A program made the translations under genes and the position numbers. Shown piece after piece: positions 11,238-40,339 of a stretch of DNA of 64,000 nucleotides. This DNA comes from an uncultured Flavobacteriales bacterium (GTDB lineage: Bacteria > Bacteroidota > Bacteroidia > Flavobacteriales_D > Parvicellaceae), in the NCBI GenBank assembly GCA_943787535.1, contig CALSMU010000009.1, forward strand, positions 1 through 64,000, given 5' to 3'. Position 1 is the stretch's first letter; every line of letters starts with the position of its first letter. The notes under the pieces were generated by a model, which made no database searches, was not told the origin of the DNA, and saw only the letters and a program-made list of their open reading frames with translations.

Positions 11238-11357
11238 AAAGTTCAAACCAAAAGAGTAAATTCTATTTTCTCCGCTATCCCTTTATTATCAAAGGATTTA
11301 GCAAAAATAAAAAGCGGAGAACCAGTTAATTTTAACCAATTCTCCGCTTTGGTGACC
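11238..11357 (+). repeat. Left 120-bp direct repeat (att-like) of the element
   Basis: It matches 35172-35291 over 120 bp with one mismatch seen (11291 region, AAAGG versus AATGG) and ends in the shared core GGTGACC (11351-11357). An 11-bp stem AAAGCGGAGAA / TTCTCCGCTTT (11311-11350) abuts the core. It marks the left boundary of the 24-kb accessory element. Confidence 0.85.
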
Positions 11358-17761: not shown

Positions 17762-17817
17762 CAGAACAAGAACAAAAACAACAGATCCAAGCTCAGTTTC
17801 CTTTTGCGAAGGTTTAA
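17758..17817 (+). pseudogene. Scar ORF: family start fused to family end (19 aa)
   Basis: It encodes MTEQEQKQQIQAQFPFAKV. The first six residues are the standard start of the shuffled family (MTEQEQ), and the rest is the standard end (SEQKQQIKAQFPFAKV). It looks like a deletion between the similar GAACAAGAACAA stretches at the start and end of one family gene. The ATG overlaps the preceding stop. Confidence 0.7.
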
Positions 17818-17914
17818 CAATGAATGAATAAAATGAAAGAGGCTGGGTTTAAACCGCTATAAAAAAAAAATGAAACCTTGTGGGTAACGATTTAGATACA
17901 AGCATAGTTTCATG

Positions 17915-17946
17915 AGGTGGAGGCCTGATCAACCTCCACCTTTCTT
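17915..17946 (+). terminator. Intrinsic terminator before the LRR array
   Basis: A perfect 9-bp GC-rich stem AGGTGGAGG / CCTCCACCT with a 9-nt loop is followed by TTCTT. It should end the 12179-17761 transcript and separate it from the array starting at 18010. Confidence 0.75.
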
Positions 17947-17965
17947 ATTATTATAAATTTATAAC

Positions 17966-18013
17966 ATGACAGAACAAGAACAACAACTAATACAAACGAG
18001 ACTCAAGAAATGA
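17966..18013 (+). CDS. Leader peptide ORF (15 aa) overlapping the next start
   Basis: It encodes MTEQEQQLIQTRLKK; its TGA overlaps the ATG of the 18010 gene (ATGA). The same 48-bp ORF recurs at 19420 and 26270, each time before a gene starting MNTEKWQQAEAE. It begins like the heads of the other family members. It may couple translation, or be the broken start of an ancestral head. Confidence 0.5.
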   Translation: MTEQEQQLIQTRLKK

Positions 18014-19404
18014 ATACAGAAAAATGGCAGCAAGCAGAGGCGGAATTACTACTAATAAGAGTGATAATGGAAATAGACCATGCTTCAGCACCGGAGCTTG
18101 CCATGACTTTGCTTAGGGGCATAAACCAGAATGTGGATAATAGGCTGCGCAAAATGGCAGAGTATGTAAAACAACTTTCATTAACCCATCCAGAAGTACA
18201 GGAAATTACCGATAATCTTAACAGGTATCTTGCCTACACGATCAAAGGCACAACAGACAATGAATATGGAAATCATCCTATTGATTTCACTGCACGGGTT
18301 CTTGCTCTGCTTTATTTCCACCCTGATAATGAACAAGAGTTTATCAATGTGGAAACAATTGGAGGTTTTGAGCCATTAAATGCAAATGAACGCTTTTCAT
18401 TTCTTTTAGATGGATGTAGCATCGACGATGAGGGTAAACCCCAGTTTAGTAATTGGTATAATGGATGTTCAAGATCAAATTCCATCTCATTTTTTCTTCA
18501 TTTAATTGGTGAATGCCCGGAAGATTTGCATGTGGATGAATCTTTGCGCAGAAGTAATATAACAACGCTTAATTTAAGAGAAAATCAGCTCAGTGAATTA
18601 CCTTCCAGCATTGGAAATTTAACTTCTTTGACTTGGCTCGATTTAGATGGAAATCAGCTCAGTGAATTACCTTCCACCATTGGAAATTTAACTTCTTTGA
18701 CTAGTCTCGATTTAGATGGAAATCAGCTCAGTGAATTACCTTCCACCATTGGAAATTTAACTTCTTTGACTTGGCTCGATTTAGATGGAAATCAGCTCAG
18801 TGAATTACCTTCCACCATTGGAAATTTAATTTCTTTGACTAGGCTCTTGTTATCTGGAAATCAGCTCAGTGAATTACCTTCCATCATTGGAAATTTAACT
18901 TCTTTGACTAGTCTCAATTTACATGGAAATCAGCTCAGTGAATTACCTTCCACCATTGGAAATTTAATTTCTTTGACTAGGCTCTTGTTATCTGGAAATC
19001 AGCTCAGTGAATTACCTTCCATCATTGGAAATTTAACTTCTTTGACTAGTCTCAATTTACATGGAAATCAGCTCAGTGAATTACCTTCCACCATTGGTAA
19101 TTTAACTTCTTTGACTAGGCTCGATTTAGATGGAAATCAGCTCAGTGAATTACCTTCCACCATTGGAAATTTAATTTCTTTGACTAGGCTCTTGTTATCT
19201 GGAAATCAGCTCAGTGAATTACCTTCCATCATTGGAAATTTAACTTCTTTGTGGGAGCTCTTTTTAAGTGGAAATCAGCTCAGTGAATTACCTTCCACCA
19301 TTGGTAATTTAACTTCTTTGACTAGGCTCTATTTAGATGGAAATCAGCTCAGCTCAGAACAAAAGCAACAGATCAAAGCTCAGTTTCCTTTTGCTAAGGT
19401 TTAA
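18010..19404 (+). CDS. Shuffled-family protein: chimeric head + 11 LRRs (type A)
   Basis: A 464-residue cytosolic protein. Residues 1-34 (MNTEKWQQAEAELLLIRVIM...) match the heads of the 19464 and 26314 proteins. From about residue 35 (RGINQNVDNRLRKMAEYVKQ) it switches to the other head type, as in the 22689 protein. A shared linker follows (ERFSFLLDGCSI, GKPQFSNWYN, SFFLHLIGECP). LRRs begin at nt 18583: eleven 23-residue units of the form NQLSELPSTIGNLTSLTxLxLxG. The end is the common cap LSSEQKQQIKAQFPFAKV. LRRs of this plant/Ras-type spacing bind proteins; the partner is unknown. Almost all differences between units fall at exposed beta-strand positions. Confidence 0.85.
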   Translation: MNTEKWQQAEAELLLIRVIMEIDHASAPELAMTLLRGINQNVDNRLRKMAEYVKQLSLTHPEVQEITDNLNRYLAYTIKGTTDNEYGNHPIDFTARVLALLYFHPDNEQEFINVETIGGFEPLNANERFSFLLDGCSIDDEGKPQFSNWYNGCSRSNSISFFLHLIGECPEDLHVDESLRRSNITTLNLRENQLSELPSSIGNLTSLTWLDLDGNQLSELPSTIGNLTSLTSLDLDGNQLSELPSTIGNLTSLTWLDLDGNQLSELPSTIGNLISLTRLLLSGNQLSELPSIIGNLTSLTSLNLHGNQLSELPSTIGNLISLTRLLLSGNQLSELPSIIGNLTSLTSLNLHGNQLSELPSTIGNLTSLTRLDLDGNQLSELPSTIGNLISLTRLLLSGNQLSELPSIIGNLTSLWELFLSGNQLSELPSTIGNLTSLTRLYLDGNQLSSEQKQQIKAQFPFAKV

Positions 19405-19419
19405 CAATGAATAACTAAC

Positions 19420-19467
19420 ATGACAGAACAAGAACAACAACTAATACAAACGAGACTCAAGAAATGA
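19420..19467 (+). CDS. Leader peptide ORF, copy 2
   Basis: Same product (MTEQEQQLIQTRLKK) and same ATGA overlap with the following gene as at 17966. It lies 15 nt after the stop of the upstream family gene. Confidence 0.5.
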   Translation: MTEQEQQLIQTRLKK

Positions 19468-20867
19468 ATACAGAAAAATGGCAGCAAGCAGAGGCGGAAT
19501 TACTACTAATAAGGGTGATAATGGAAATAGACCATGCTTCAGCACCGGAGCTTGCCATGACTTTGGTTAAAGGCATTAATTTACAGAATCTATTTTGGCG
19601 TACCAACTTAAAGGCGGCTAGAATATTAATTCCAGAAACGATTAATTCATTCAACGGGCAAAGAAATGATAACGGACATATACCTATAAATGAGTTTCTG
19701 CAACTAGCATGGGAGGGCGAAGTTCAACATTTTAATGACGTTGTACATGATTTTACTTTAATGGCTGCTCTGTATCATTTTCATCCTCGGAATAATTATG
19801 ATGATTTTGAAGGGCCGCTGGATGGTTTTGAGCCACAGCATGCTGAGGAACGCTTTTCATTTCTTTTAGATGGATGTAGCATCAACGATGAGGGCAAACC
19901 TCAGCTTAGTGATTGGTATAATGAATTTCCACAATGCAATTCCATTTCGTTTTTTCTTTCTCTTGTTGGAGATTGTCCTGCTGACCTTAGCATTGATGAA
20001 TCGCTTCGTGTCAGAAATATAACGAAGCTTAATGTTTCTGGTTGTGGCCTTCTAACTTTACCGGGCTTGCATCGAATGACTAATTTGGAAGAATTGTTTT
20101 TTTCTTGCAATGACCTAACAAAGATTGACCTCAGCGATAACAGTAATTTGGTAAGTTTGGATTGTTCTGAAAATTTATTGCTTCAGCTTGATTTGAGCCA
20201 CAATTCAAAAATAGAATATTTGAATTGTGCTGAAAACCAACTAGGCTCCATTGATCTGTGGATGCTGACCTATTTATTTGAGTTAGATTGTTCTGAAAAT
20301 CAGCTGACCTCCCTTGATATTACAAAAAACTTGAATTTGAACTATTTAGAGTGTTGGCGTAATCAACTCACTACTTTGGATGTAAGTCAAAACAATGCAT
20401 TAACTATATTGTCGTGTTCTAATAATAAGCTCAAGATCTTAGATGTAAGTCAAAACAATGCATTAACTGAATTGAATTGTTCTCTTAATCATCTCTACCC
20501 GGTATTGGATGTAAGTCAAAACAATGCATTAACTAAATTGCACTGTTCTGAGAATCTGCTCTTTATCTTGGATGTAAGTCAAAACAATGCATTAACTATA
20601 TTGTGGTGTGGAGTTAATCAACTCACGATCTTGGATGTAAGTCAAAACAATGCATTAACTAAATTGTCGTGTGCTGAAAATCAACTTACCACCTTGGATG
20701 TAAGTCAAAACAATGCATTAACTGATTTGGATTGTCCTTTTAATAAGCTCACGATCTTGGATGTAAGTCAAAACAATGCATTAACTGAATTGAATTGTTC
20801 TTATAATGAGCTCAGCTCAGAACAAAAACAACAGATTAAAAATCAATTTTCTTTTGCTAAAGTTTAA
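19464..20867 (+). CDS. Shuffled-family protein: head type 2 + LRR tail (LDVSQNNAL type)
   Basis: A 467-residue cytosolic protein. The head (residues 1-125) has the same first 34 residues as the 18010 protein, then a different middle (GINLQNLFWRTNLKAARIL, FNDVVHDFTLMAALYHFHP). The common linker (ERFSFLLDGCSI, SIDESLRVRNIT) precedes the LRRs. These are four irregular units shared almost exactly with the 26314 protein (IDLSDNSNLVSLDCSENLL and following) and then seven units of LDVSQNNALTxLxCxxNxL. The common cap LSSEQKQQIKNQFSFAKV closes the protein. No signal peptide, so the LRRs face the cytosol. Confidence 0.85.
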   Translation: MNTEKWQQAEAELLLIRVIMEIDHASAPELAMTLVKGINLQNLFWRTNLKAARILIPETINSFNGQRNDNGHIPINEFLQLAWEGEVQHFNDVVHDFTLMAALYHFHPRNNYDDFEGPLDGFEPQHAEERFSFLLDGCSINDEGKPQLSDWYNEFPQCNSISFFLSLVGDCPADLSIDESLRVRNITKLNVSGCGLLTLPGLHRMTNLEELFFSCNDLTKIDLSDNSNLVSLDCSENLLLQLDLSHNSKIEYLNCAENQLGSIDLWMLTYLFELDCSENQLTSLDITKNLNLNYLECWRNQLTTLDVSQNNALTILSCSNNKLKILDVSQNNALTELNCSLNHLYPVLDVSQNNALTKLHCSENLLFILDVSQNNALTILWCGVNQLTILDVSQNNALTKLSCAENQLTTLDVSQNNALTDLDCPFNKLTILDVSQNNALTELNCSYNELSSEQKQQIKNQFSFAKV

Positions 20868-20882
20868 TAATGAATAACAAAT

Positions 20883-22577
20883 ATGACCGAACAAGAACAA
20901 CAACTAATACAGGCAATACTGCGAATAGACCATGCTTCAGCACCGGAGGTTGCAATGGCGTTGGTTAAAGGCATAGAACAGACTGTGGATAATAGGCTGC
21001 GCAAAATGGCAGAGTATGTAAAACAACTTTCATCACACCATCCGGAAGTACAGGAAATTACCGATAATCTTAACAGGTATCTTGCCTACACGATCAATGG
21101 CACAACAGACAATGAATATGGAAATCATCCTATTGATTTCACTGCACGGGTTCTTGCTCTGCTTTATTTCCACCCTGATAATGAACAAGAGTTTATCAAT
21201 GTGGAAACAATTGGAGGTTTTTCAATTTCTCGTTCTGATGAAGAAATTGTTGCTTATTTTATTGAACCATTCAGAGAACAAATAATAGATGGGATACACG
21301 ATTTCTATTTCACATGGGATTTTGCGACATTTCCTGAACAGCTGAAAACCGATTTTGACATAAGTCTTGCAGCAGTGGTTATGGAGCATGGCTATTTCTT
21401 AGAAATGTCTCCGCACCTGCAACATGACATTGAATTCATAAAAAAATCATTGTTGCACGGTAGTATTGATATCTGTCTATGGCTTCCGCAAGAGCTGTTG
21501 TGCAGCAAGGAATTTTTTCTGGAGGTAATTGATATTGATGTGGACATTCTGAGCCATGCAAAGTTTGACTATAAAAATGATGGGGACTTTATATTAAAAG
21601 CGGCAAAAAAGAATCCACGAGCGATTGAATTTGCCTCAGATGAATTGAAAGCTGATAAGCAGTTTTTTTTAGATTCAATGCAGATTTATCCTGCTCTTTT
21701 AAAATTTGAAAAATTACTCAATAATGAATCGTCAGAAGACTTATATACAGTTTTAAAAGAACCATTTCCGTTTTGTCTGGAACTGGAGTTTTTAGATGAA
21801 CTTCTGCATTCGAATCATCGATATTCATCAAAAATTACAGAAAGAATATTTAAAGGGTTGAACTTTGTTGATTTTGACAAAAAAAACGACACTGTTTTAA
21901 ACCGGATTTATAACAGAGATGTGTCTTTCACAAAGGCCTCTTATGACCTGATGGATCATCTTCGAAATAAGAAACTTGAAGACCAGTTGCATCTACTTTC
22001 AATATTCAGGGCTATGAAGTTTTTGGACAACCCAAAAAACGGTTCATTGAGTGCAGCACAAAAACAGGAATTTTTTAATCCTGACTTTAATTTTATCAGA
22101 AACTGGTTGTTTCGACAACACTTAAAGTTAAATTACATTGATAAATTTCTTCCATTAACGTATGACGATAAAACGCACTTTGTTCTAAAAAAGTATATTC
22201 CATTGTTCTTGGGGAAAGAAATGGGAATTGAGGAATATAAGAACAGGCATCGGGACAAAGCTGTGATTCGCAAATATTTGAGTAATGAATTAGTACATAC
22301 GGAAACTGCGATGTTGAGTCCTGCTTATCTGGAAAAAAAAGCGAGTGAGCATAGATGCACAGCATGCGGCGGATACAGAGATGAGAAAAGAATTAAAAAT
22401 GATAAGAGTAACTTTCTTTGCAGGGTTTGTACAGATCTTAAAAAAAGAAAACCCCGACCAGATTGTAGTGAGCTATTGAAAGAAAAAATAAATAAGTCAA
22501 AAATAGCCCGAGAATATGGTGTATCAGATACAGCGGTAAGGAAATGGATAGAAGCATGCAAAAAAATAATTGAATAA
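20883..22577 (+). CDS. Shuffled-family protein: head type 1 + DUF4116-like repeats + zinc ribbon and HTH
   Basis: A 564-residue protein. Residues 1-112 are head type 1 (MTEQEQQLIQAILRIDHASAPEVA...IGGF). Residues about 125-300 hold DUF4116-like units (LKADKQFFLDSM, AIEFASDELKADK). A long helical region follows. The C-terminus has a four-Cys zinc ribbon (Cys492, Cys495, Cys513, Cys516: CTAC...CRVC), a basic linker and an HTH (KSKIAREYGVSDTAVRKW, about 539-556). Such a ribbon-HTH end is common in phage HNH-type and other DNA-binding proteins. This member may therefore bind nucleic acid, unlike its LRR siblings. No nuclease motif is visible. Confidence 0.75.
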   Translation: MTEQEQQLIQAILRIDHASAPEVAMALVKGIEQTVDNRLRKMAEYVKQLSSHHPEVQEITDNLNRYLAYTINGTTDNEYGNHPIDFTARVLALLYFHPDNEQEFINVETIGGFSISRSDEEIVAYFIEPFREQIIDGIHDFYFTWDFATFPEQLKTDFDISLAAVVMEHGYFLEMSPHLQHDIEFIKKSLLHGSIDICLWLPQELLCSKEFFLEVIDIDVDILSHAKFDYKNDGDFILKAAKKNPRAIEFASDELKADKQFFLDSMQIYPALLKFEKLLNNESSEDLYTVLKEPFPFCLELEFLDELLHSNHRYSSKITERIFKGLNFVDFDKKNDTVLNRIYNRDVSFTKASYDLMDHLRNKKLEDQLHLLSIFRAMKFLDNPKNGSLSAAQKQEFFNPDFNFIRNWLFRQHLKLNYIDKFLPLTYDDKTHFVLKKYIPLFLGKEMGIEEYKNRHRDKAVIRKYLSNELVHTETAMLSPAYLEKKASEHRCTACGGYRDEKRIKNDKSNFLCRVCTDLKKRKPRPDCSELLKEKINKSKIAREYGVSDTAVRKWIEACKKIIE

Positions 22578-22619
22578 TGATTTATTTTATTGAAACAAGA
22601 TTAGAGTTATTAACACTAA

Positions 22620-22679
22620 ATGACAGAACAAGAACAAAAACAACATATCCAAGCTCAGTTTCCTTTTGCTCAATTATAA
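22620..22679 (+). pseudogene. Scar ORF, copy 2 (19 aa)
   Basis: It encodes MTEQEQKQHIQAQFPFAQL: family start joined to family end, like 17758-17817 but diverged at three residues. It is followed directly by the TATAAATTTATA leader that also precedes the 17966 ORF, and then by the 22689 gene. Confidence 0.65.
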
Positions 22680-22688
22680 ATTTATAAC

Positions 22689-24149
22689 ATGACAGAACAA
22701 GAACAACAACTAATACAGGCAATACTGCGAATAGACCATGCTTCAGCACCGGAGGTTGCCATGACTTTGCTTAGGGGCATAAACCAGAATGTGGATAATA
22801 GGCTGCGCAAAATGGCAGAGTATGTAAAACAACTTTCATCACACCATCCAGAATTACAAGGAATGGCGTTTGTCGATTTGAGAGATCGATATGGCATGGA
22901 AATTACCGATAATCTTATCAGGTATCTTGCCTACACTATCAATGGCACAACAGACAATGAATATGGAAATCATCCTATTGATTTCACTGCACGGGTTCTT
23001 GCTCTGCTTTATTTCCACCCTGATAATGAACAAGAGTTTATCAATGTGGAAACAATTGGAGGTTTTGAGCCATTAAATGCAAATGAACGTTTTTCATTTC
23101 TTTTAGATGGATGTAGCATCAATGATGAGGGTAAACCCCAGCTTAATTCTTGGTTTAATCAATTTCCAAAGAAGCATGCCATTTCATTTTTTCTTTATTT
23201 AATTGGTGAATGCCCATTGGATATTGCTATCCATGAATCGCTTCGTGTGAGAAATATTACAACACTATCTATTATAGATATTGGTCTCACGACCATACCA
23301 AGTTTACATAAAATGACGGCTTTAACTCAATTGAATTGTCAGGAGAATCAAATCACAAGTTTAGATGTAAGTCAAAATACTGCTTTAACTGAATTGAGGT
23401 GTTATGGTAATCAACTAACGAGTTTAGATGTAAGTCAAAATACTGCTTTAACTGTATTGTGGTGTTGGTCAAATGAGCTTAGAAGTTTAGATGTAAGTCA
23501 AAATACTGCTTTAACTGAATTGAGGTGTGATAATAATCAAATAACGAGTTTAGATGTCAGTCAAAATACTGCTTTAACTGAATTGTTTTGTGGAAATAAT
23601 CAAATGACGGCTTTAACTCAATTGAATTGTCAGGAGAATCAAATCACAAGTTTAGATGTAAGTCAAAATACTGCTTTAAATAAATTGAGTTGTTATGGTA
23701 ATAATCTGTCGAGTTTAGATGTAAGTCAAAATACTGCTTTAACTGAATTGAGGTGTTATGGTAATAATCTGTCGAGTTTAGATGTAAGTCAAAATACTGC
23801 TTTAACTGAATTGAGGTGTTATGGTAATCAACTAACGAGTTTAGATGTAAGTCAAAATACTGCTTTAACTGTATTGTTTTGTGGAAATAATCAAATAACG
23901 AGTTTAGAAGTAAGTCAAAATACTGCTTTAAATAAATTGAGTTGTTATGGTAATAATCTGTCGAGTTTAGATGTCAGTCAAAATACTGCTTTAGATTATT
24001 TGTGGTGTGGAAATAATCAACTAGTGAGTTTAGATGTCAGTCAAAATACTGCTTTAAATAAATTGAGTTGTAGTAGTAATCGACTCAGCCAAGAACAAAA
24101 AGAACGCATAAAGGCTCAATTTCCTTTTGCTAATTTTTATAATGAATAA
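22689..24149 (+). CDS. Shuffled-family protein: head type 1 (long) + 11 LRRs (LDVSQNTAL type)
   Basis: A 486-residue cytosolic protein. Its head contains an extra block (LQGMAFVDLRDRYGM) that only the 24155 protein shares. The linker (ERFSFLLDGCSI, FFLYLIGECP, IHESLRVRNITT) is followed by eleven 21-residue units LDVSQNTALTxLxCxxNxLxS. Between units 4 and 5 the repeat-entry segment MTALTQLNCQENQ appears a second time, evidence of unequal recombination inside the tail. It ends with a variant of the family cap (SQEQKERIKAQFPFANF). Same strand, 5-nt gap to the next gene. Confidence 0.85.
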   Translation: MTEQEQQLIQAILRIDHASAPEVAMTLLRGINQNVDNRLRKMAEYVKQLSSHHPELQGMAFVDLRDRYGMEITDNLIRYLAYTINGTTDNEYGNHPIDFTARVLALLYFHPDNEQEFINVETIGGFEPLNANERFSFLLDGCSINDEGKPQLNSWFNQFPKKHAISFFLYLIGECPLDIAIHESLRVRNITTLSIIDIGLTTIPSLHKMTALTQLNCQENQITSLDVSQNTALTELRCYGNQLTSLDVSQNTALTVLWCWSNELRSLDVSQNTALTELRCDNNQITSLDVSQNTALTELFCGNNQMTALTQLNCQENQITSLDVSQNTALNKLSCYGNNLSSLDVSQNTALTELRCYGNNLSSLDVSQNTALTELRCYGNQLTSLDVSQNTALTVLFCGNNQITSLEVSQNTALNKLSCYGNNLSSLDVSQNTALDYLWCGNNQLVSLDVSQNTALNKLSCSSNRLSQEQKERIKAQFPFANFYNE

Positions 24150-24154
24150 CGCAA

Positions 24155-26254
24155 ATGACTAAAAAAGAACAACAACTAATACAGGCAATACTGCGTTGGG
24201 ATAATGCGGAGGCACCGGAGGTTGCCATGACTTTGCTTAGGGGCATAAACCAGAATGTGGATAATAGGCTGCGCAAAATGGCAGAGTATGTAAAACAACT
24301 TTCATCACACCATCCAGAATTACAAGGAATGGCGTTTGTCGATTTGAGAGATCGATATGGCATGGAAATTACCGATAATCTTATCAGGTATCTTGCCTAC
24401 ACTATCAATGGCACAACAGACAATGAATATGGAAATCATCCTATTGATTTCACTGCACGGGTTCTTGCTCTGCTTTATTTCCACCCTGATAATGAACAAG
24501 AGTTTATCAATGTGGAAACAATTGGAGGTTTTGAGCCATTAAATGCAAATGAACGCTTTTCATTTCTTTTAGATGGATGTAGCATCGTCGATGAGGGTAA
24601 ACCCCAGTTTAGTAATTGGTATAATGGATGTTCAAGATCAAATTCCATCTCATTTTTTCTTCATTTAATTGGTGAATGCCCGGAAGATTTGCATGTGGAT
24701 GAATCTTTGCGCAGAAGTAATATAACAACGCTTAATTTAAGAGAAAATCAGCTCAGTGAATTACCTTCCAGCATTGGAAATTTAACTTCTTTGACTTGGC
24801 TCGATTTAGATGGAAATCAGCTCAGTGAATTACCTTCCACCATTGGAAATTTAACTTCTTTGACTAGTCTCGATTTAGATGGAAATCAGCTCAGTGAATT
24901 ACCTTCCACCATTGGAAATTTAATTTCTTTGACTAGGCTCTTGTTATCTGGAAATCAGCTCAGTGAATTACCTTCCACCATTGGAAATTTAACTTCTTTG
25001 ACTAGGCTCTTGTTATCTGGAAATCAGCTCAGTGAATTACCTTCCACCATTGGAAATTTAACTTCTTTGACTAGTCTCTATTTAGATGGAAATCAGCTCA
25101 GTGAATTACCTTCCACCATTGGAAATTTAATTTCTTTGACTAGGCTCTTGTTATCTGGAAATCAGCTCAGTGAATTACCTTCCACCATTGGAAATTTAAC
25201 TTCTTTGACTAGTCTCTATTTAGATGGAAATCAGCTCAGTGAATTACCTTCCACCATTGGTAATTTAACTTCTTTGACTAGGCTCGATTTAGATGGAAAT
25301 CAGCTCAGTGAATTACCTTCCACCATTGGAAATTTAATTTCTTTGACTAGGCTCTTGTTATCTGGAAATCAGCTCAGTGAATTACCTTCCACCATTGGAA
25401 ATTTAACTTCTTTGACTAGGCTCTTGTTATCTGGAAATCAGCTCAGTGAATTACCTTCCACCATTGGAAATTTAACTTCTTTGACTAGTCTCTATTTAGA
25501 TGGAAATCAGCTCAGTGAATTACCTTCCACCATTGGAAATTTAATTTCTTTGACTAGGCTCTTGTTATCTGGAAATCAGCTCAGTGAATTACCTTCCACC
25601 ATTGGAAATTTAACTTCTTTGACTAGTCTCTATTTAGATGGAAATCAGCTCAGTGAATTACCTTCCACCATTGGTAATTTAACTTCTTTGACTAGGCTCG
25701 ATTTAGATGGAAATCAGCTCAGTGAATTACCTTCCACCATTGGAAATTTAATTTCTTTGACTAGGCTCTTGTTATCTGGAAATCAGCTCAGTGAATTACC
25801 TTCCACCATTGGAAATTTAACTTCTTTGACTAGTCTCAATTTACATGGAAATCAGCTCAGTGAATTACCTTCCACCATTGGAAATTTAACTTCTTTGACT
25901 AGTCTCAATTTAGATGGAAATCAGCTCAGTGAATTACCTTCCATTGGTAATTTAACTTCTTTGACTTTGCTCGATTTAGATGGAAATCAGCTCAGTGAAT
26001 TACCTTCCACCATTGGAAATTTAATTTCTTTGAAATACCTCTTTTTAGGTAAAAATCAGCTCAGTGAATTACCTTCCATCATTGGTAATTTAACTTCTTT
26101 GACTTGGCTCTATTTAGATGGAAATCAGCTCAGTGAATTACCTTCCACCATTGGTAATTTAACTTCTTTGACTAGGCTCTATTTAGATGGAAATCAGCTC
26201 AGCTCAGAACAAAAGCAACAGATCAAAGCTCAGTTTCCTTTTGCTAAGGTTTAA
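24155..26254 (+). CDS. Shuffled-family protein: head type 1 (long) + 21 LRRs (type A)
   Basis: A 699-residue cytosolic protein. Head and linker are nearly the same as in 22689 up to the linker, but the tail is the 23-residue LRR of the 18010 protein. There are 21 units from nt 24746 to 26191, then the cap LSSEQKQQIKAQFPFAKV. The linker from FSNWYNGCSRSNSISFFLHL onward matches 18010 closely, so the linker-tail cassette moved as one. Units 3-8 and 9-14 are exact 414-bp copies. Unit 18 lacks one residue. The start is MTKKEQQLIQAILRWDNAEAPEVA, a variant of the usual start. Confidence 0.85.
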   Translation: MTKKEQQLIQAILRWDNAEAPEVAMTLLRGINQNVDNRLRKMAEYVKQLSSHHPELQGMAFVDLRDRYGMEITDNLIRYLAYTINGTTDNEYGNHPIDFTARVLALLYFHPDNEQEFINVETIGGFEPLNANERFSFLLDGCSIVDEGKPQFSNWYNGCSRSNSISFFLHLIGECPEDLHVDESLRRSNITTLNLRENQLSELPSSIGNLTSLTWLDLDGNQLSELPSTIGNLTSLTSLDLDGNQLSELPSTIGNLISLTRLLLSGNQLSELPSTIGNLTSLTRLLLSGNQLSELPSTIGNLTSLTSLYLDGNQLSELPSTIGNLISLTRLLLSGNQLSELPSTIGNLTSLTSLYLDGNQLSELPSTIGNLTSLTRLDLDGNQLSELPSTIGNLISLTRLLLSGNQLSELPSTIGNLTSLTRLLLSGNQLSELPSTIGNLTSLTSLYLDGNQLSELPSTIGNLISLTRLLLSGNQLSELPSTIGNLTSLTSLYLDGNQLSELPSTIGNLTSLTRLDLDGNQLSELPSTIGNLISLTRLLLSGNQLSELPSTIGNLTSLTSLNLHGNQLSELPSTIGNLTSLTSLNLDGNQLSELPSIGNLTSLTLLDLDGNQLSELPSTIGNLISLKYLFLGKNQLSELPSIIGNLTSLTWLYLDGNQLSELPSTIGNLTSLTRLYLDGNQLSSEQKQQIKAQFPFAKV
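24884..25711 (+). repeat. Exact tandem duplication of six LRR units (2 x 414 bp)
   Basis: LRR units 3-8 (24884-25297) and 9-14 (25298-25711) agree at each position I compared, including the GGAAAT/GGTAAT and AACTTC/AATTTC variants. This is a recent unequal-crossover or slippage event within the tail. Confidence 0.85.
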
Positions 26255-26269
26255 CAATGAATAACTAAC

Positions 26270-26317
26270 ATGACAGAACAAGAACAACAACTAATACAAA
26301 CGAGACTCAAGAAATGA
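26270..26317 (+). CDS. Leader peptide ORF, copy 3
   Basis: Identical product to the ORFs at 17966 and 19420 (MTEQEQQLIQTRLKK), again with its TGA overlapping the ATG of the downstream MNTEKWQQ gene. Confidence 0.5.
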   Translation: MTEQEQQLIQTRLKK

Positions 26318-27282
26318 ATACAGAAAAATGGCAGCAAGCAGAGGCGGAATTACTACTAATAAGGGTGATAATGGAAATAGACCATGCTTCAGCACCGGAG
26401 CTTGCCATGACTTTGGTTAAAGGCATTAATTTACAGAATCTATTTTGGCGTACCAACTTAAAGGCGGCTAGAATATTAATTCCAGAAACGATTAATTCAT
26501 TCAACGGGCAAAGAAATGATAACGGACATATACCTATAAATGAGTTTCTGCAACTAGCATGGGAGGGCGAAGTTCAACATTTTAATGACGTTGTACATGA
26601 TTTTACTTTAATGGCTGCTCTGTATCATTTTCATCCTCGGGATAATTATGATGATTTTGAAGGGCCGCTGGATGGTTTTGAGCCACAGCATGCTGAGGAA
26701 CGCTTTTCATTTCTTTTAGATGGATGTAGCATCAGGCACCGCTGCGGCAGACCCCAGCTCAGTTCTTGGTATAATGATTTTTCACATGTAAATAGAGTTG
26801 CCTTTTTTCTCCATCTGATTAGCGATTGCCAAGCAGATCTAAATATCGATGAATCTCTTCGCGTCAGAAATATAACTAAGCTTGATGTTTCTAGTTGTGG
26901 CCTTCTAACTTTACCGGGTTTGCATCGAATGACTAATTTAGAAGAATTGCTTTTTTCTTGCAATGACCTAACAAAGATTGACCTCAGCGATAACAGTAAT
27001 TTGGTAAGTTTGGATTGTTCTGAAAATTTATTGATTCAGCTTGATTTGAGCCACAATTCAAAAATAGAATATTTGAATTGTGCTGAAAACCAACTAGGCT
27101 CCATTGATCTGTCGATGCTGACCTATTTATTTGAGTTAGATTGTTCTGAGAGTCAGCTGACCTCCCTTGATATTACAAACAACTTGAATTTGAACTATTT
27201 GGATTGTTCCGATAATCAACTAACAGAGCAAAACAAGCAAGAAGTCAGAGAGCTTTTACCTCAAGCAATCATTGATATTTAA
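26314..27282 (+). CDS. Shuffled-family protein: head type 2 + short LRR tail
   Basis: A 322-residue cytosolic protein. The head is nearly identical to the 19464 protein. The linker is different for a short stretch (RHRCGRPQLSSWYNDF) and then returns to the shared form. The LRR part equals the first units of 19464 (LTKIDLSDNSNLVSLDCSENLL..., LTSLDITNNLNLNYLDCSDNQL) but stops there, with its own cap TEQNKQEVRELLPQAIIDI. It is either the shorter ancestor of 19464 or a version that lost the LDVSQNNAL array. It lies 9 nt before the next gene. Confidence 0.82.
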   Translation: MNTEKWQQAEAELLLIRVIMEIDHASAPELAMTLVKGINLQNLFWRTNLKAARILIPETINSFNGQRNDNGHIPINEFLQLAWEGEVQHFNDVVHDFTLMAALYHFHPRDNYDDFEGPLDGFEPQHAEERFSFLLDGCSIRHRCGRPQLSSWYNDFSHVNRVAFFLHLISDCQADLNIDESLRVRNITKLDVSSCGLLTLPGLHRMTNLEELLFSCNDLTKIDLSDNSNLVSLDCSENLLIQLDLSHNSKIEYLNCAENQLGSIDLSMLTYLFELDCSESQLTSLDITNNLNLNYLDCSDNQLTEQNKQEVRELLPQAIIDI

Positions 27283-27291
27283 AACTAAACA

Positions 27292-29928
27292 ATGACAGAA
27301 CAAGAACAACAACTAATACAGGCAATACTGCGAATAGACCATGCTTCAGCACCGGAGGTTGCAATGGCGTTGGTTAAAGACATAGACCAAACTGTGGATA
27401 ATAGGCTGCGCAAAATGGCAGAGTATGTAAAACAACTTTCATCACACCATCCAGAAGTACAGGAAATTACCGATAATCTTAACAGGTATCTTGCCTATAC
27501 TATCAATGGCACCAAAGACAATGAATATGGAAATCATCCTATTGATTTCACTGCACGGATTCTTGCTCTGCTTTTTTTCTACCCTGATAATGAACAAGAG
27601 TTTATCAATGTGGAAACAATTGGAGGTTTTGAGCCGGAGCATGCTGATGAACGGATGCATCAAGCCATACCAATATTTATTGAAGGTATATCAAATGGAA
27701 AATGGAAACTCAAGGATTACCCTGGAGAGTTGCAATGCCATCACGAAATTATAATTGCAGAGCTTGGTCAAAGAGCAGAGTCATTCCTCGAATTAAACAT
27801 TAATTTTCGAGAAGATCATAATTTTCAGCGTGCGGCTCTCGGAAATCTAAATATTGTTGATCTCATTCAAGAATATAGAATACTGGAAAAGGAAGCACCT
27901 CAGTATAATGATTCCGGGTATAATGAATATCAAGAAAAAAGAAAGGAATATCAAGAAAAAAGAAAGGCAATTAGTGCGGATGTGAAAAGATCGGTTAACA
28001 GAGGCTATATCCTGGAACATGTGGATGAAGAGCTCAAGGATTTTGAATTTGTTCGTGATGTTATACGAAATGATGGAAGCGCCTTAAAATTCGCAGGAAG
28101 CTGGCAGAAAAACGAAGAAATTCTAGTGGAGGCAATACTGGCTATGGTACGGTATAGTGGCCTGCACTGGGACTTTAGTTTATATTATGATGATCCTCTG
28201 GAAGATACATTGAGAGAGTATTTGGATACTCTCAAAGAAATTGGAAAAAACGGTAACAACGCCATTTATGAAAAACTTTTGGACGGATTGTTTTTTGAAG
28301 GAAATGATAAATATTGTGAAGGTTTCCCTTTAAAAGGTATTGATGAATGGAAAGATAAATATGCTATTTCATGGTATGAAAATAAAGCACTGGGAATATT
28401 GATCTACAGGCTGGTGCTCGACTGTCCGGCAGATGCAGAAATTCATAAAAGTCTTAACTGGGATAATCTTTGCCGGTGGTTCATTTACGCAACAGAAAAT
28501 GTTGGAGATGGAATTGAGGGGCATGACGGTCATAAACATCTGAATATGGTTGCCCCAAAAGAGTTTTTTACCAGCTGGAAATACATTAAATGGTTATTTG
28601 AATTTAGATGGGATGACGTACCTCTTTTTTGCGTATGCGATGGCTACGTTTTTGATCAGGTTCCAAATGATAAATTTTCTGATAAGCAATTCCTGTGCAA
28701 TGTTTTAATGAGTTGCAGTAAGACCAGTGCCTATTTTCCGGAAAGCAAGCTTGCGTTAATTGAAGAGCTTGCTAATGATGAAGAAGTTTCAAGATTTATT
28801 AAATACAGGGACGTAGAGATACTTGAAAAGATCAATTCCACAGCAGATCTTTCCTCGTCACAATTTGCTGAATTTCCGGATATTCAGCTGTTAAAAAGGA
28901 GTCGGAGTTTTGTGGATGTCAAGGTTTTGAAATTAAACGATTGCAAATCCCTGATGTCAATACAAAACTTAAGTGCACTTGATTTTCTGGAGGAGCTTCA
29001 GCTAAACGGTTGTAGCTCACTTGAGTCCTTAACGGGAATTGAAAATTTATCGAATATTAAAAAACTGTCACTGAACGATTGCAGTAATCTTAAATCTCTT
29101 AGCGCATTGAAGCCTTTAACTCAATTGGAATTTTTATATCTAAATGGATGTGGTGCTCTTGTTACTTTTGAAGGACTGGAAGATATAACAGAGCAAAAAC
29201 CCCCTTTCTACCGTATACTACAGCTTATAGACAGTAGTAATAATCAGGTTGTGTTCCTTCCATTAGAACTGAATGATGGTGAAGACTTACGTTCGTTAAA
29301 GGGATTGGATTTTGCAATGAACCTTTTAAAAATTTGCCCATGGTTTGGAGACGATCCAACTTTAATGTTTTTGTCAGACAGTTTACGGTCTAATAAAAAA
29401 GTTGTTTTAGAGGCAGTTAAAAACAATGTTTGCGCTTTATTTGAGGCTTCAGAAGAATTACAAAACGATTATGAGGTTTTCCTTGAGGCATTAAAATCAG
29501 ATTATGAGTATGTCTGTGAGGTTACCGATAATTTAAAAACAGAAAAAGAACTTGTCCTTAAGGCATTAAAATCAGATTATGAGCCTCAAAATGATAAATC
29601 CTTTTTCTATGATTTACCAAAAGAATTATTATCAGATATAGATTTTGCAATGGACCTTTTAAAAATTTGCCCATGGTTTGGAGACGATCCAACTAGTTGG
29701 CCAACTTTTATTTATTTGTCAGACAGTTTACAGTCTAATAAAAAAGTTGTTTTAGAGGCAGTTAAAAACAATGGATATGCTTTGGAATTTACTTCAGAAG
29801 AGTTTAGGGCAGATAGACAGGTTGTCCTGGAGGCAGTGAAACAAGCAGGAGAGGCTTTGGAGTATGCCTCAGAAGCGCTTCAAAATGATCCTGAATTAAT
29901 AGCATTGGCAGAGAAAACTAAAAAATGA
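27292..29928 (+). CDS. Shuffled-family protein: head type 1 + unique middle + LRR + DUF4116-like tail (878 aa)
   Basis: The longest family member. Residues 1-115 are head type 1. A unique helical middle follows, including the duplicated EYQEKRK segment. Residues about 520-640 carry Cys-rich LRRs (LNDCKSL, LEELQLNGCSSLESL, LNDCSNLKSL, LNGCGALVTFEGL). The last ~220 residues are DUF4116-type units (KKVVLEAVKNNxxAL, ADRQVVLEAVKQAGEALEYASEALQNDPELIALA). The segment with FAMNLLKICPWFGDDPT is present twice. The C-terminal cap matches that of the 15659 protein. It joins the LRR and DUF4116 tail types in one chain. No catalytic domain recognised. Confidence 0.75.
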   Translation: MTEQEQQLIQAILRIDHASAPEVAMALVKDIDQTVDNRLRKMAEYVKQLSSHHPEVQEITDNLNRYLAYTINGTKDNEYGNHPIDFTARILALLFFYPDNEQEFINVETIGGFEPEHADERMHQAIPIFIEGISNGKWKLKDYPGELQCHHEIIIAELGQRAESFLELNINFREDHNFQRAALGNLNIVDLIQEYRILEKEAPQYNDSGYNEYQEKRKEYQEKRKAISADVKRSVNRGYILEHVDEELKDFEFVRDVIRNDGSALKFAGSWQKNEEILVEAILAMVRYSGLHWDFSLYYDDPLEDTLREYLDTLKEIGKNGNNAIYEKLLDGLFFEGNDKYCEGFPLKGIDEWKDKYAISWYENKALGILIYRLVLDCPADAEIHKSLNWDNLCRWFIYATENVGDGIEGHDGHKHLNMVAPKEFFTSWKYIKWLFEFRWDDVPLFCVCDGYVFDQVPNDKFSDKQFLCNVLMSCSKTSAYFPESKLALIEELANDEEVSRFIKYRDVEILEKINSTADLSSSQFAEFPDIQLLKRSRSFVDVKVLKLNDCKSLMSIQNLSALDFLEELQLNGCSSLESLTGIENLSNIKKLSLNDCSNLKSLSALKPLTQLEFLYLNGCGALVTFEGLEDITEQKPPFYRILQLIDSSNNQVVFLPLELNDGEDLRSLKGLDFAMNLLKICPWFGDDPTLMFLSDSLRSNKKVVLEAVKNNVCALFEASEELQNDYEVFLEALKSDYEYVCEVTDNLKTEKELVLKALKSDYEPQNDKSFFYDLPKELLSDIDFAMDLLKICPWFGDDPTSWPTFIYLSDSLQSNKKVVLEAVKNNGYALEFTSEEFRADRQVVLEAVKQAGEALEYASEALQNDPELIALAEKTKK

Positions 29929-30135
29929 CAGAACAAGAACAAGAACAAGAACAAGAGCAAGAGCAAGAACAACATCTAATAAAAGCAATACTGCGAATAG
30001 ACCAGGAACCGATGGGTGATTTTGAGCCACAAATATCAAGCATGCCTCATCCTAGTATCTGGTATAATGAATTTCGACAATGCAATTCAATTTCATTCTT
30101 TCTTTCACTTGTTGGAGATTGTCCTGCTGGTACCA
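29925..30135 (+). pseudogene. Decayed shuffled-family gene (head and linker fragment)
   Basis: It starts MTEQEQ followed by an expanded EQ repeat, then HLIKAILRIDQEP. It jumps directly to the linker (GDFEPQ, IWYNEFRQCNSISFFLSLVGDCPAG) that matches the 19464 gene (SDWYNEFPQCNSISFFLSLVGDCPAD). About 100 head residues and the tail are missing. The frame stays open to 30332, but beyond 30135 it reads antisense to the probable small RNA and resembles nothing in the family. Confidence 0.75.
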
Positions 30136-30141
30136 ATAGAA

Positions 30142-30170
30142 TAAAAAAACCACACCTCTATTGGGTGTGG
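30142..30170 (-). terminator. Intrinsic terminator of the candidate small RNA
   Basis: On the minus strand a 7-bp stem CCACACC / GGTGTGG is followed by seven T residues (complement of 30143-30149). The + strand lacks a T-tract after the stem, so the terminator works for the minus strand only. Confidence 0.75.
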
Positions 30171-30282
30171 CTGCCTTTAGTTTCTAATGAACTTAAGGAC
30201 TTTATTTATTCCTCTTTTCTTGGTTGGCTTTTACCTTTAGTCTATATTGAACCTAGGATGTTTTCTTTTCTTCCGTATTCTT
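30142..30282 (-). ncRNA. Candidate small RNA (about 141 nt)
   Basis: On the minus strand a consensus promoter (30319-30289) predicts a start near 30282, and an intrinsic terminator ends near 30142. No ORF with a sensible start fits between them. The transcript contains two imperfect repeats, each with AAGAAAAGA, then a GTTCA block and ACTAAAGG. I do not recognise the RNA class. No cas, TnpB/IscB or reverse-transcriptase gene lies nearby. Confidence 0.55.
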
Positions 30283-30288
30283 ATAACA

Positions 30289-30319
30289 CAAATATACGAC
30301 AAATAACAGGACAGAGCAA
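30289..30319 (-). promoter_or_regulatory. Consensus Bacteroidota promoter on the minus strand
   Basis: Minus-strand TTG (30319-30317), a 20-bp spacer and TATATTTG (30296-30289), the same geometry as the promoters at 9451 and 41570. It faces into the decayed family gene, where no minus-strand protein gene exists. Confidence 0.7.
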
Positions 30320-30480
30320 GAACTACAACTAATACAGGCAATACTGCGCAGCAATTGATAAGAGTCACAACACACTAGTAAAATTATTAAACATTGACCA
30401 CAAAAACCCTCATATCATCCTCTAAAAACTGGCTAGATACCTCAAGTAATCATTGATATTTAAAACTAAACAATGACAGA
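30312..30480 (+). repeat. Family remnants in the gap before 30577
   Basis: The 30333-30576 gap has no gene. It holds two fragments of family DNA: 30314-30343 matches the start region (CAACTAATACAGGCAATACT), and 30439-30480 matches the end of the 26314 gene plus the following ATGACAGAACA start. These are left-overs of lost copies. Confidence 0.65.
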
Positions 30481-30576
30481 ACATGTATGTTTTAAATGTT
30501 ACAGTTACATCCGCATTATATACAGCGGCTTATTACAGGGTAAAATTAATATATTTTAATTAACATACACAAAGTA

Positions 30577-31452
30577 ATGAAAAGGAAAGATCACAACATA
30601 AAGCTCCAAGACCCCATATTTACCTATATGGTGGGTGAACAACGGGTCAGCAACATCGCCGAGCTCGACCTTTCTGCAAGAAGTATAAAAAGCTTTGAGG
30701 GTATGAAACACTTCACTAACCTGATCAAACTATCGGTAAACGACAACCCCTGCTGGGAAATCGATTTGAGTAAAAACAGGGCACTGCGGGAGCTGGCATG
30801 TTCCAACAGGCAACAGAATATGAGCGTAAATTGTACAGCCCGTCTCGAGTATCTACAATGCAACCGCGACGATCTCGATACAATACTGTGCGATCGTGCT
30901 TCATTAAAGAGGCTTTCGCTTCATGCCCTTTTGCCCGAAGCAGCATTGCCGAAGGTTATTTCAGAGCTGCATAATCTCCAAAACCTTGAAGTGATTCGGA
31001 TGGGACTGTCGGATCTTTCTGCAATTTATTCGCTTAAGGAGCTGAAGTCATTGGATCTTGCCTTCAACAGACTCTCTGAGCTGCCCTCCGAGATTATCTC
31101 AATGGATCTGGTCGAGCTGAGATTAAGGGGCAATCCGTTCAATGAGCTTCCCGAATCGCTGCACGACGAATACAAAGTTGTTCTGGAGCTGAGCTATGGT
31201 CAGGCATTGCTTCCTGACGGAACAACCGACGAGCTCTGGACCGAACAGGACTTTTACCTTACACACCGAACAACCGACGATCAAACAATTCATGAGCGAG
31301 CTAACGGTCAGCTGAACTGCGATGTCCACATTGTTCACGAATGGGATGTACGGGAGCTTCTTGTAAAAATAAATTCAGTTTACGACAAGCAATTCAGCCC
31401 ATCACCAGAACCGATCATTAGCTACGATACACCAGACGGCCTGCCGTTTTAG
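30577..31452 (+). CDS. LRR protein unrelated to the shuffled heads (291 aa)
   Basis: A cytosolic protein with LRR units through residues 25-200: IAELDLSARSIKSFEGMKHFTNLIKLSVNDN, LRELACSN, LQNLEVIRMGLSDLSAIYS and LKSLDLAFNRLSELPSEI. It has its own N-terminus (MKRKDHNIKLQDPIF), lacks the family head and cap, and is richer in G+C than the array. The C-terminal 90 residues are a separate, acidic region ending SYDTPDGLPF. It is probably an independent cargo gene of the element. Confidence 0.78.
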   Translation: MKRKDHNIKLQDPIFTYMVGEQRVSNIAELDLSARSIKSFEGMKHFTNLIKLSVNDNPCWEIDLSKNRALRELACSNRQQNMSVNCTARLEYLQCNRDDLDTILCDRASLKRLSLHALLPEAALPKVISELHNLQNLEVIRMGLSDLSAIYSLKELKSLDLAFNRLSELPSEIISMDLVELRLRGNPFNELPESLHDEYKVVLELSYGQALLPDGTTDELWTEQDFYLTHRTTDDQTIHERANGQLNCDVHIVHEWDVRELLVKINSVYDKQFSPSPEPIISYDTPDGLPF

Positions 31453-33728: not shown

Positions 33729-35333
33729 ATGAAAGAACTAAACGAATTCAAAAAATTTAGCCCTGAGCGCAAAGCTCTTGGAGAAAATAATAATGCAATT
33801 ATCTATACTCGCGTTTCAACAAAGGAACAAGCAGACACAAACACAAGTCTTGGAACTCAAAAAAGGTATTGCGAAAATTATGCTAAAGCGAATGAATTAA
33901 ATGTAGTAGGCTATTTTGGAGGAACGCACGAATCAGCAAAAAGTGATGACAGAAAGGAATTTAAAAGAATGCTGAAGTATGTCAAGCAAAGTGGCTCAAT
34001 AGGCTACATTATCGTTTATTCATACGATCGATTTTCACGAACAGGATCCAGTGCATCTCAAATCACACATGAATTACTGAATCAAGGAATTCAAGTAAAA
34101 GCAGTGACTCAAGAGGTTGATGCGACTTCAGCATCAGGTAAATTCCAGCAAAACCTATTCTATATGTTTAGTCAATTTGACAACGAACTGAGAAGAGATA
34201 AAACAATCACCGCAATGAGTGACTTATTGCGAAAAGGCTATTGGCTTTGGAATCCCCCACTGGGTTATATCAATAAGAAAAAATATCATAAAGCAGTGGA
34301 TTGGGATATTGTGATTGATGAAAACGGAAAACAACTAAAAAAAGCTTTTAAGTGGAGATTGAAAAACACATACTCTAATGCTGAAATCGTCAGAAGATTG
34401 AATGCAGCAGGAATGAAGATAAATGAAAAGCGCTTACATGAGATTTTCAAGAATCCTTTTTATTGCGGAATTCTTGTATGTAAAATGTTACCTGGTGAAA
34501 TAATTGAAGGGAAGCACAAACCTATTGTATCTAAAGAGGATTTTTTAGTAATCAATTCTGAATCTCATTCTCAGGTAAAAGAATATAAAACAGACAACGA
34601 TCAACTTCCACTAAAGCAATTCGTTTACTGTGAAGCTTGCCACACCCCTTTGACAGGTTTTATTGTTAAACAAAAAGGATTGTATTACTATAAATGCAGA
34701 ACCAAAGGATGTAGCTGTACAAAATCGGCAAAAAAACTTCATGAGCAATTTGAGCAGAGATTAAGTAATTTTCAAGTTGATTCAGAATATGCCGATATAA
34801 TCAAGGAGGTAATGGTTTACACCTATTATTCTATAACAAAAGACAACAGGGAAAATGAGACGAATGTCAAAAAGCAATTGAGCTTGCTAAAGTCCAAAAT
34901 TGATACTATTGAAGAACGCTTTGCAATTGGAGAAATTGACAACGAAATATATAAGAAATTCAAAACCAAATATGAAGCAGAAGAAAAGAATTTACAGTCA
35001 AATTTATTCAGTTCTGAAATTTCGAGTTCAAACCTTCAAAAAGCAATAGACAAAGCATTAAAAATGTCTTCTAACCTTAGTGAATTATGGACTTCTGGCG
35101 ATTTATTTCAAAAGAAGAAAATACAAAATTTAGTGTTTCCATCCGGAATAGGTTACGACAAGTTAAAAGGCAAAGTTCAAACCAAAAGAGTAAATTCTAT
35201 TTTCTCCGCTATCCCTTTATTATCAATGGATTTAGCAAAAATAAAAAGCGGAGAACCAGTTAATTTTAACCAATTCTCCGCTTTGGTGACCCAGACAGGA
35301 TTCAAACCTGTAACCGCCAGAGCCGAAATCTGA
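33729..35333 (+). CDS. Large serine recombinase (integrase) whose C-terminus reads into tRNA-Arg
   Basis: A 534-residue site-specific recombinase. The resolvase domain has catalytic Ser30 in YTRVST, with YDRFSRTGSSASQITHELL and the DNELRRD helix. A recombinase domain (GYWLWNPPLGY..., LNAAGMKINEKRLHEIFKNPFYCGIL) is followed by a zinc ribbon with CEAC and CRTKGCSC, and a coiled coil (about 380-440). The last residues QTGFKPVTARAEI are encoded by the 3' end of the tRNA-Arg, read antisense. The 11238 remnant shows a different natural tail (SSGDSSNFLEDLKALE). The recombinase presumably integrates the element at the tRNA-Arg. Confidence 0.93.
   Translation: MKELNEFKKFSPERKALGENNNAIIYTRVSTKEQADTNTSLGTQKRYCENYAKANELNVVGYFGGTHESAKSDDRKEFKRMLKYVKQSGSIGYIIVYSYDRFSRTGSSASQITHELLNQGIQVKAVTQEVDATSASGKFQQNLFYMFSQFDNELRRDKTITAMSDLLRKGYWLWNPPLGYINKKKYHKAVDWDIVIDENGKQLKKAFKWRLKNTYSNAEIVRRLNAAGMKINEKRLHEIFKNPFYCGILVCKMLPGEIIEGKHKPIVSKEDFLVINSESHSQVKEYKTDNDQLPLKQFVYCEACHTPLTGFIVKQKGLYYYKCRTKGCSCTKSAKKLHEQFEQRLSNFQVDSEYADIIKEVMVYTYYSITKDNRENETNVKKQLSLLKSKIDTIEERFAIGEIDNEIYKKFKTKYEAEEKNLQSNLFSSEISSSNLQKAIDKALKMSSNLSELWTSGDLFQKKKIQNLVFPSGIGYDKLKGKVQTKRVNSIFSAIPLLSMDLAKIKSGEPVNFNQFSALVTQTGFKPVTARAEI
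35172..35291 (+). repeat. Right 120-bp direct repeat (att-like) of the element
   Basis: Mate of 11238-11357. The copies part ways just after GGTGACC (35285-35291): the right side continues into the tRNA-Arg (CAGACAGG), the left side into the element. The strand exchange is therefore most simply placed within or next to TTGGTGACC. Confidence 0.85.
35245..35284 (-). terminator. Hairpin inside the recombinase 3' end, probable tRNA terminator
   Basis: A perfect 11-bp stem AAAGCGGAGAA / TTCTCCGCTTT encloses GTTAA/TTAAC. On the minus strand, reading out of the tRNA, it begins right at the tRNA end and is followed by TTTATTTTTGC. It thus replaces the native terminator (40228-40257) of this tRNA copy. 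Confidence 0.65.
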
Positions 35334-35360
35334 TGCGCTATTCAGTTGCGCCACTGGGCC
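35284..35360 (-). tRNA. tRNA-Arg (anticodon TCG), copy with encoded CCA
   Basis: The cloverleaf folds fully: acceptor GGCCCAG/CTGGGTC, D-stem GCGC/GCGC, anticodon stem TCAGA/TCTGG with loop TTTCGGC (anticodon TCG), T-arm ACAGG/CCTGT with loop TTTGAAT, discriminator A. The CCA end is encoded here because the element's core supplies GGT on the other strand. Positions 19 and 56 are A and T instead of G and C, keeping the tertiary pair. The other copy at 40266 has the same 74-nt body. Confidence 0.92.
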
Positions 35361-40257: not shown

Positions 40258-40265
40258 ACTCTTAG

Positions 40266-40339
40266 TGACCCAGACAGGATTCAAACCTGTAACCGCCAGA
40301 GCCGAAATCTGATGCGCTATTCAGTTGCGCCACTGGGCC
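40266..40339 (-). tRNA. tRNA-Arg (anticodon TCG), native copy without encoded CCA
   Basis: Same 74-nt sequence as 35287-35360, but the bases after the discriminator are CTA, so CCA must be added enzymatically. It lies 4 nt downstream of the intact HU/SPOR gene on the same strand and is followed by a terminator. It is probably co-transcribed with that gene. Confidence 0.93.

Follow-up and report, generated by a model that had tools for sequence, protein, structure and literature searches.

The window, a 64,000-nt stretch of DNA (G000:C9:1-64000) from a Bacteroidota genome of 3.15 Mb and 35% GC, contains an element that is probably a real, evolutionarily young non-coding RNA gene, found so far in one genome. 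We consider it reasonably probable that a 173-bp insert represents a compact, independently transcribed minus-strand non-coding RNA gene that was acquired or formed as the end of an array of LRR genes decayed. Most likely, the element is a lineage-specific, independently transcribed small RNA that is cis-antisense to any read-through transcript of the array.

We predict transcription by sigma-A RNA polymerase from about 30284 to an intrinsic terminator near 30143. The product would have a 5' half that is A-rich and unstructured and then two hairpin units, derived from an old tandem duplication of ~60 nt, of which only the second would keep a working terminator. The likeliest action, if any, would be base-pairing, either as a perfect cis-antisense RNA to array read-through mRNA or on targets in trans. 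Alternatively, the predicted RNA may be non-functional. The sequence itself shows the motifs, how rarely they coincide, the ends of the insert and the lack of relatives in the searches; transcription, its start site and any function are inferred.

Setting of the insert in the array

The array spans about 15.6-30.5 kb on the plus strand and encodes LRR and DUF4116 proteins, which share their N-terminal region and, at the 5' start, a repeated sequence. The last intact family copy is at 27292-29928. The features at the end of the array, in window coordinates, are:

29925..30129, plus strand: truncated, internally deleted LRR-family copy (N-terminal part) with the family start; its last part, up to 30129, is homologous to 19899-19983
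29925..30332, plus strand: ORF of 135 aa, open through the insert; the part within the insert has no relatives and does not resemble coding sequence
30130..30302, no strand assigned: insert of 173 bp without similarity to the LRR family; nearly coextensive with the unit from -7 box to terminator
30142..30172, minus strand: intrinsic terminator with a 9-bp stem, 7-nt loop and T run; stem-loop AGCCACACC-CAATAGA-GGTGTGGTT
30143..30284, minus strand: predicted non-coding transcript of about 142 nt, with +1 placed from the position of the box
30174..30199, minus strand: repeat R2, TCCTTAAGTTCATTAGAAACTAAAGG; 8-bp hairpin with one mismatch
30234..30258, minus strand: repeat R1, TCCTAGGTTCAATATAGACTAAAGG; weak hairpin (-1.6 kcal/mol)
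30289..30319, minus strand: promoter-like site TTG-N20-TATATTTG, an exact pattern match; the -7 box belongs to the insert, and the -33 TTG falls within the 5' end of the following family copy
30303..30348, plus strand: 5' start of the following family copy, decayed, with AGG in place of ATG
30438..30483, plus strand: end of a decayed family copy and start of another, 98% identical to 27257-27302

Family homology halts at 30129. Where it picks up again, at 30303, the sequence is already the start of the next copy; the remaining part of the gene is absent. The original prediction placed the element in an interrupted family gene. Non-family DNA does lie within a broken copy, but the interruption is not a clean one, as the right flank is the start of the next copy. 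In the minus orientation, 6 nt of insert precede the -7 box and 12-13 nt follow the RNA. The near coincidence of these boundaries with the unit supports an RNA gene, and the view that this is an orphan small RNA gene or a separate insertion is borne out to the extent that a promoter-terminator unit is present in non-family, non-coding DNA.

Signs of recombination and decay occur elsewhere in the array. At 17760-17819 and 22620-22679, family genes are collapsed, with the start MTEQEQKQQ fused directly to an LRR-gene C-terminus (IQAQFPFA...), which suggests deletion through recombination between Gln-rich start and end sequences. The N-terminal region common to the LRR/DUF4116 array (15659-31452) was not found in any other of the 399 genomes of the order searched, or in GTDB or viral contigs, at the sensitivity used. 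A profile search identified no array family outside the own genome, hence there is no comparative array.

A 120-bp direct repeat, 99% identical, is present at 11238-11357 and 35172-35291. It contains the 3' end of the recombinase gene and a terminator hairpin adjacent to tRNA-Arg. The two copies either bound a serine-recombinase island of ~24 kb, which includes the array, or are a scar left by an earlier integration. Two tRNA-Arg (TCG) genes are located 5 kb apart (35284-35360 and 40265-40339), one of which adjoins the island end. The window also encodes a 1345-aa protein with a Por-secretion tail (4241-8278), built on 348-bp tandem repeats (5262-7975).

The integration module of the island occupies about 31.74-35.29 kb, and related islands were found via the recombinase. 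The closest intact one (G148) has the module in common (72% at the DNA level), with similarity beginning at about 31.74 kb, and contains neither the array nor the RNA. Given a related island with the module and without the RNA, the RNA is island cargo rather than integration machinery. The sibling island on G148:C31 (L212 14513-17961) has this same module, with a recombinase of 71% protein identity, a MerR-like gene and two small minus-strand genes, and carries different cargo.

Promoter, predicted transcript and internal repeats

The promoter letters TTGCTCTGTCCTGTTATTTGTCGTATATTTG match exactly at 30319-30289 on the minus strand, so the perfect TTG-N20 promoter originally described is there. 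It is of the sigma-A type (TTG-N19-21-TAnnTTTG) and lies directly upstream of the predicted transcript. Only the -7 box is held by the insert; the -33 TTG sits in family coding DNA, in a CAA codon of the next copy, which weakens the case for an RNA gene. In flavobacteria the TAnnTTTG box is located at -12 to -5 (PMC9723704), and +1 would thus be A30284. At the 3' end of the predicted transcript is an intrinsic terminator, the stem-loop with T tail that had been noted earlier; hairpin and T run end at about 30143.

Read by eye, the predicted transcript lacks ATG and TTG, and GTG occurs inside the terminator only. The lack of a start codon outside the terminator points to a non-coding RNA, and no translated ORF was identified in the predicted transcript. 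The minus-strand frames of the insert are non-coding, rich in stops and without a gene tail. The earlier description of ~141 nt free of ORFs thus holds for the minus-strand RNA, but on the plus strand the 135-aa ORF crosses the element. Overall, the sigma-A type promoter, the intrinsic terminator and the lack of a translated ORF in the predicted transcript are features of a stand-alone Bacteroidota small RNA gene.

The two imperfect repeats that had been pointed out are real. R1 (TCC-TAGGTTCAATATAGACTAAAGG) and R2 (TCCTTAAGTTCATTAGAAACTAAAGG) are 82% identical over 22 nt at a spacing of 60 nt, and the best self-alignment has a p of about 0.001 relative to dinucleotide shuffles. The likeness extends downstream (AGCCA(C)ACC...AGAGG in one copy and AGCCACACC..AGAGG in the other), with p between 0.0005 and 0.03 depending on which half is shuffled. 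Based on this extension, a ~60-nt hairpin-plus-terminator unit was seemingly duplicated, and the predicted RNA seems to consist of two diverged copies of this unit, the first of which has lost its terminator.

Two base differences between the stems of R1 and R2 keep pairing via G-U only in minus-strand RNA, a weak hint that the minus strand may be the one transcribed. Differences between the repeats fall mostly on second codon positions of the plus frame, which also supports an RNA gene. On the other side, the R1 hairpin is weak and the folding z of the whole RNA is only -1.7, slightly better than shuffled sequences; both weaken the case.

Relatives and frequency of the signals

Searches by blastn of the own genome, 100 relatives, phages and plasmids gave short AT-rich chance matches only. 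Exact-pattern scans of viral contigs and GTDB contigs returned two unrelated 18-base matches or nothing. A covariance-model search of Bacteroidota genomes had been suggested with the original prediction; a single-sequence model run on 399 genomes of the order and 395 of the phylum yielded weak matches and no homologue near any element. The best of the weak matches (L083) proved to be the 3' end of a gene plus its terminator, and a 78% match in L217 is Lys/Thr-rich coding DNA. Among Rfam families the best score was 20 bits, relative to cut-offs of 45 or more. The lack of a homologue in all these searches, which cover a sample of the phylum rather than the whole of it, weakens the case for an RNA gene and leaves neither conservation nor covariation to cite. 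No conservation was thus seen in relatives, the order or the phylum, and a young RNA need not be conserved.

Promoters and terminators were counted in 2.46 Mb, about 78% of the own genome, taken as stretches. In 800 kb of genome strand there are 24 terminators of comparable strength, whereas a single one occurs in 2 Mb of first-order shuffles. There are 117 in the 2.46 Mb: 73 follow an ORF, 6 follow a tRNA gene, 37 are otherwise intergenic and just one, that at 30142-30172, lies within an ORF 100 aa or longer. That this terminator class is nearly absent from shuffles and in real DNA is almost confined to intergenic positions and the ends of genes supports an RNA gene. The promoter pattern alone is no more common than in shuffled sequence (41 per 800 kb versus 121 per 2 Mb), which weakens the case, but its density upstream of genes is 6.2 times that in coding DNA (0.264 versus 0.043 per kb), which strengthens the case.

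A strict promoter and a strong terminator on the same strand, 60-300 nt apart, occur together three times in the 2.46 Mb. The other two pairs belong to tRNA genes (L101, with the tRNA at 10395-10479, and L153), and this rarity is in favor of an RNA gene. The element had been called the only one of its kind in the cargo, and its counterparts in this sample are indeed tRNA genes only. If the promoter pattern occurred at its coding-DNA rate, it would be present in about 1% of random 240-nt stretches, so about one chance pair is expected for the 117 terminators in the whole sample. The combination is therefore suggestive of a transcription unit rather than proof of one. Antisense transcription from random promoters is also expected in AT-rich genomes (PMC7366714), and this further weakens the case.

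A serious rival, although a rather unlikely one in our estimate, is that the insert is a captured fragment, i.e., non-coding filler from rearrangement at the array end, such as the 3' tail and terminator of a minus-strand gene. The terminator would be genuine in origin and now terminate nothing, and the promoter would have arisen by chance at the junction. Consistent with such an origin, the -33 TTG belongs to the family DNA outside the insert, the promoter motif occurs at its shuffled frequency, the best weak covariance-model match is itself a gene 3' end with terminator, and conservation is lacking in DNA whose surroundings are clearly decaying. However, a promoter would be found by chance 60-300 nt upstream of only about 1% of terminators at the coding-DNA rate, versus 2 of the 6 tRNA terminators that have a strict promoter at this distance; a gene tail is missing from the stop-rich minus-strand frames; and no donor was found in the own genome, for which the assembly is 94% complete.

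It is improbable, in our view, that the insert marks the emergence of a new small RNA family, in which a tandemly duplicated hairpin-terminator unit settled in an LRR array undergoing recombination, took over a -33 element from the repeated 5' sequence of the array and now attenuates read-through by convergent antisense transcription.

Slightly less credible still is that the plus strand is the one that matters. In this case 29925-30332 would encode a genuine short protein of the family, whose C-terminal domain is different and hydrophobic and which has a repeat of 20 aa, and the signals on the minus strand would be incidental. No stop codon interrupts the frame within the insert and the 60-nt repeat preserves it, but the codon-pair score of the insert in this frame is -0.04, below the 5th percentile (0.095) of coding segments of that size (0.33, sd 0.14); open shadow frames average -0.09. 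This plus-strand sequence that is not coding-like is among the grounds for preferring a minus-strand RNA gene. Furthermore, the repeat differences are mostly amino-acid changing, the 135-aa ORF has no relatives in Pfam, PHROGs or phages, and it would be the sole scanned ORF with a strong antisense terminator inside.

Possible roles and known systems

If the minus-strand RNA is made, what could it do? The original prediction suggested an antisense or guide-like RNA tied to the array, and this did not hold up: in addition to the lack of homologues near any element, there is no family sequence in the transcribed part and no excess complementarity. Without family sequence, the RNA is not antisense to any intact array gene, and the antisense relation that remains, to a plus-strand read-through transcript crossing the insert only, is trivial. 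Complementarity of the RNA to 26 gene starts of the island and its surroundings, those of the array included, showed no excess (best rank 10-13 of 100 shuffles). No effector nuclease domain was identified among the island ORFs scanned that could point to a guide RNA of TnpB, IscB or Cas. Overall, nothing ties the RNA to neighboring genes, a role in trans or as a guide is unsupported, and nothing so far gives the RNA a role in the array.

An orphan type III antitoxin-like RNA, whose repeats would neutralize an RNase toxin that was lost or is encoded elsewhere, is hardly credible: promoter, tandem repeats and terminator do follow the order used to recognize ToxI loci (PMC8860590), but no toxin gene follows the terminator (the first minus-strand ORF of 60 aa or more below 30142 is a short shadow ORF at 29244-29426, within a plus-strand gene), and no ToxN match in the genome exceeds the PF13958 cut-off (of the ToxN, TenpN and CptN models, the search used ToxN). 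Type III antitoxins have near-identical tandem repeats that each form a pseudoknot; here there are just two repeats, diverged to 82% over 22 nt.

If transcribed, the minus-strand small-RNA gene would be very young, with a birth cleanly recorded in the DNA, in that the 173-bp insert is almost coextensive with the transcription unit and the promoter is completed by the flanking gene family. It would be a useful but modest example of how orphan small RNAs originate in mobile islands.

Among known systems, the type III antitoxin RNA ToxI resembles the element in its layout of promoter, repeats and terminator, but here no toxin gene lies behind, ToxN is not detected above cut-off in the genome and the two repeats are diverged (PMC8860590). 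Like Bacteroidota cis-antisense RNAs of the DonS type (PMC7366714), the RNA is antisense to a gene array and could pair perfectly with a read-through transcript; unlike them, it lies in non-family DNA of a broken copy and is complementary to no intact array gene. The closest parallels are ordinary Bacteroidota small RNAs with their own start and terminator, such as GibS (PMC7366714). GibS of Bacteroides thetaiotaomicron is 145 nt long and has its own transcription start site and intrinsic terminator (PMC7366714). For the RNA predicted here no sequence relative or conservation was found and, in contrast to small RNAs of this type, it is not intergenic with conserved neighbors. It resembles them in the Bacteroidota promoter type, a length of about 142-145 nt, a largely unstructured 5' part, a 3' intrinsic terminator and the lack of an ORF, and this likeness in layout and length to validated Bacteroides small RNAs (PMC7366714) supports its interpretation as an RNA gene.
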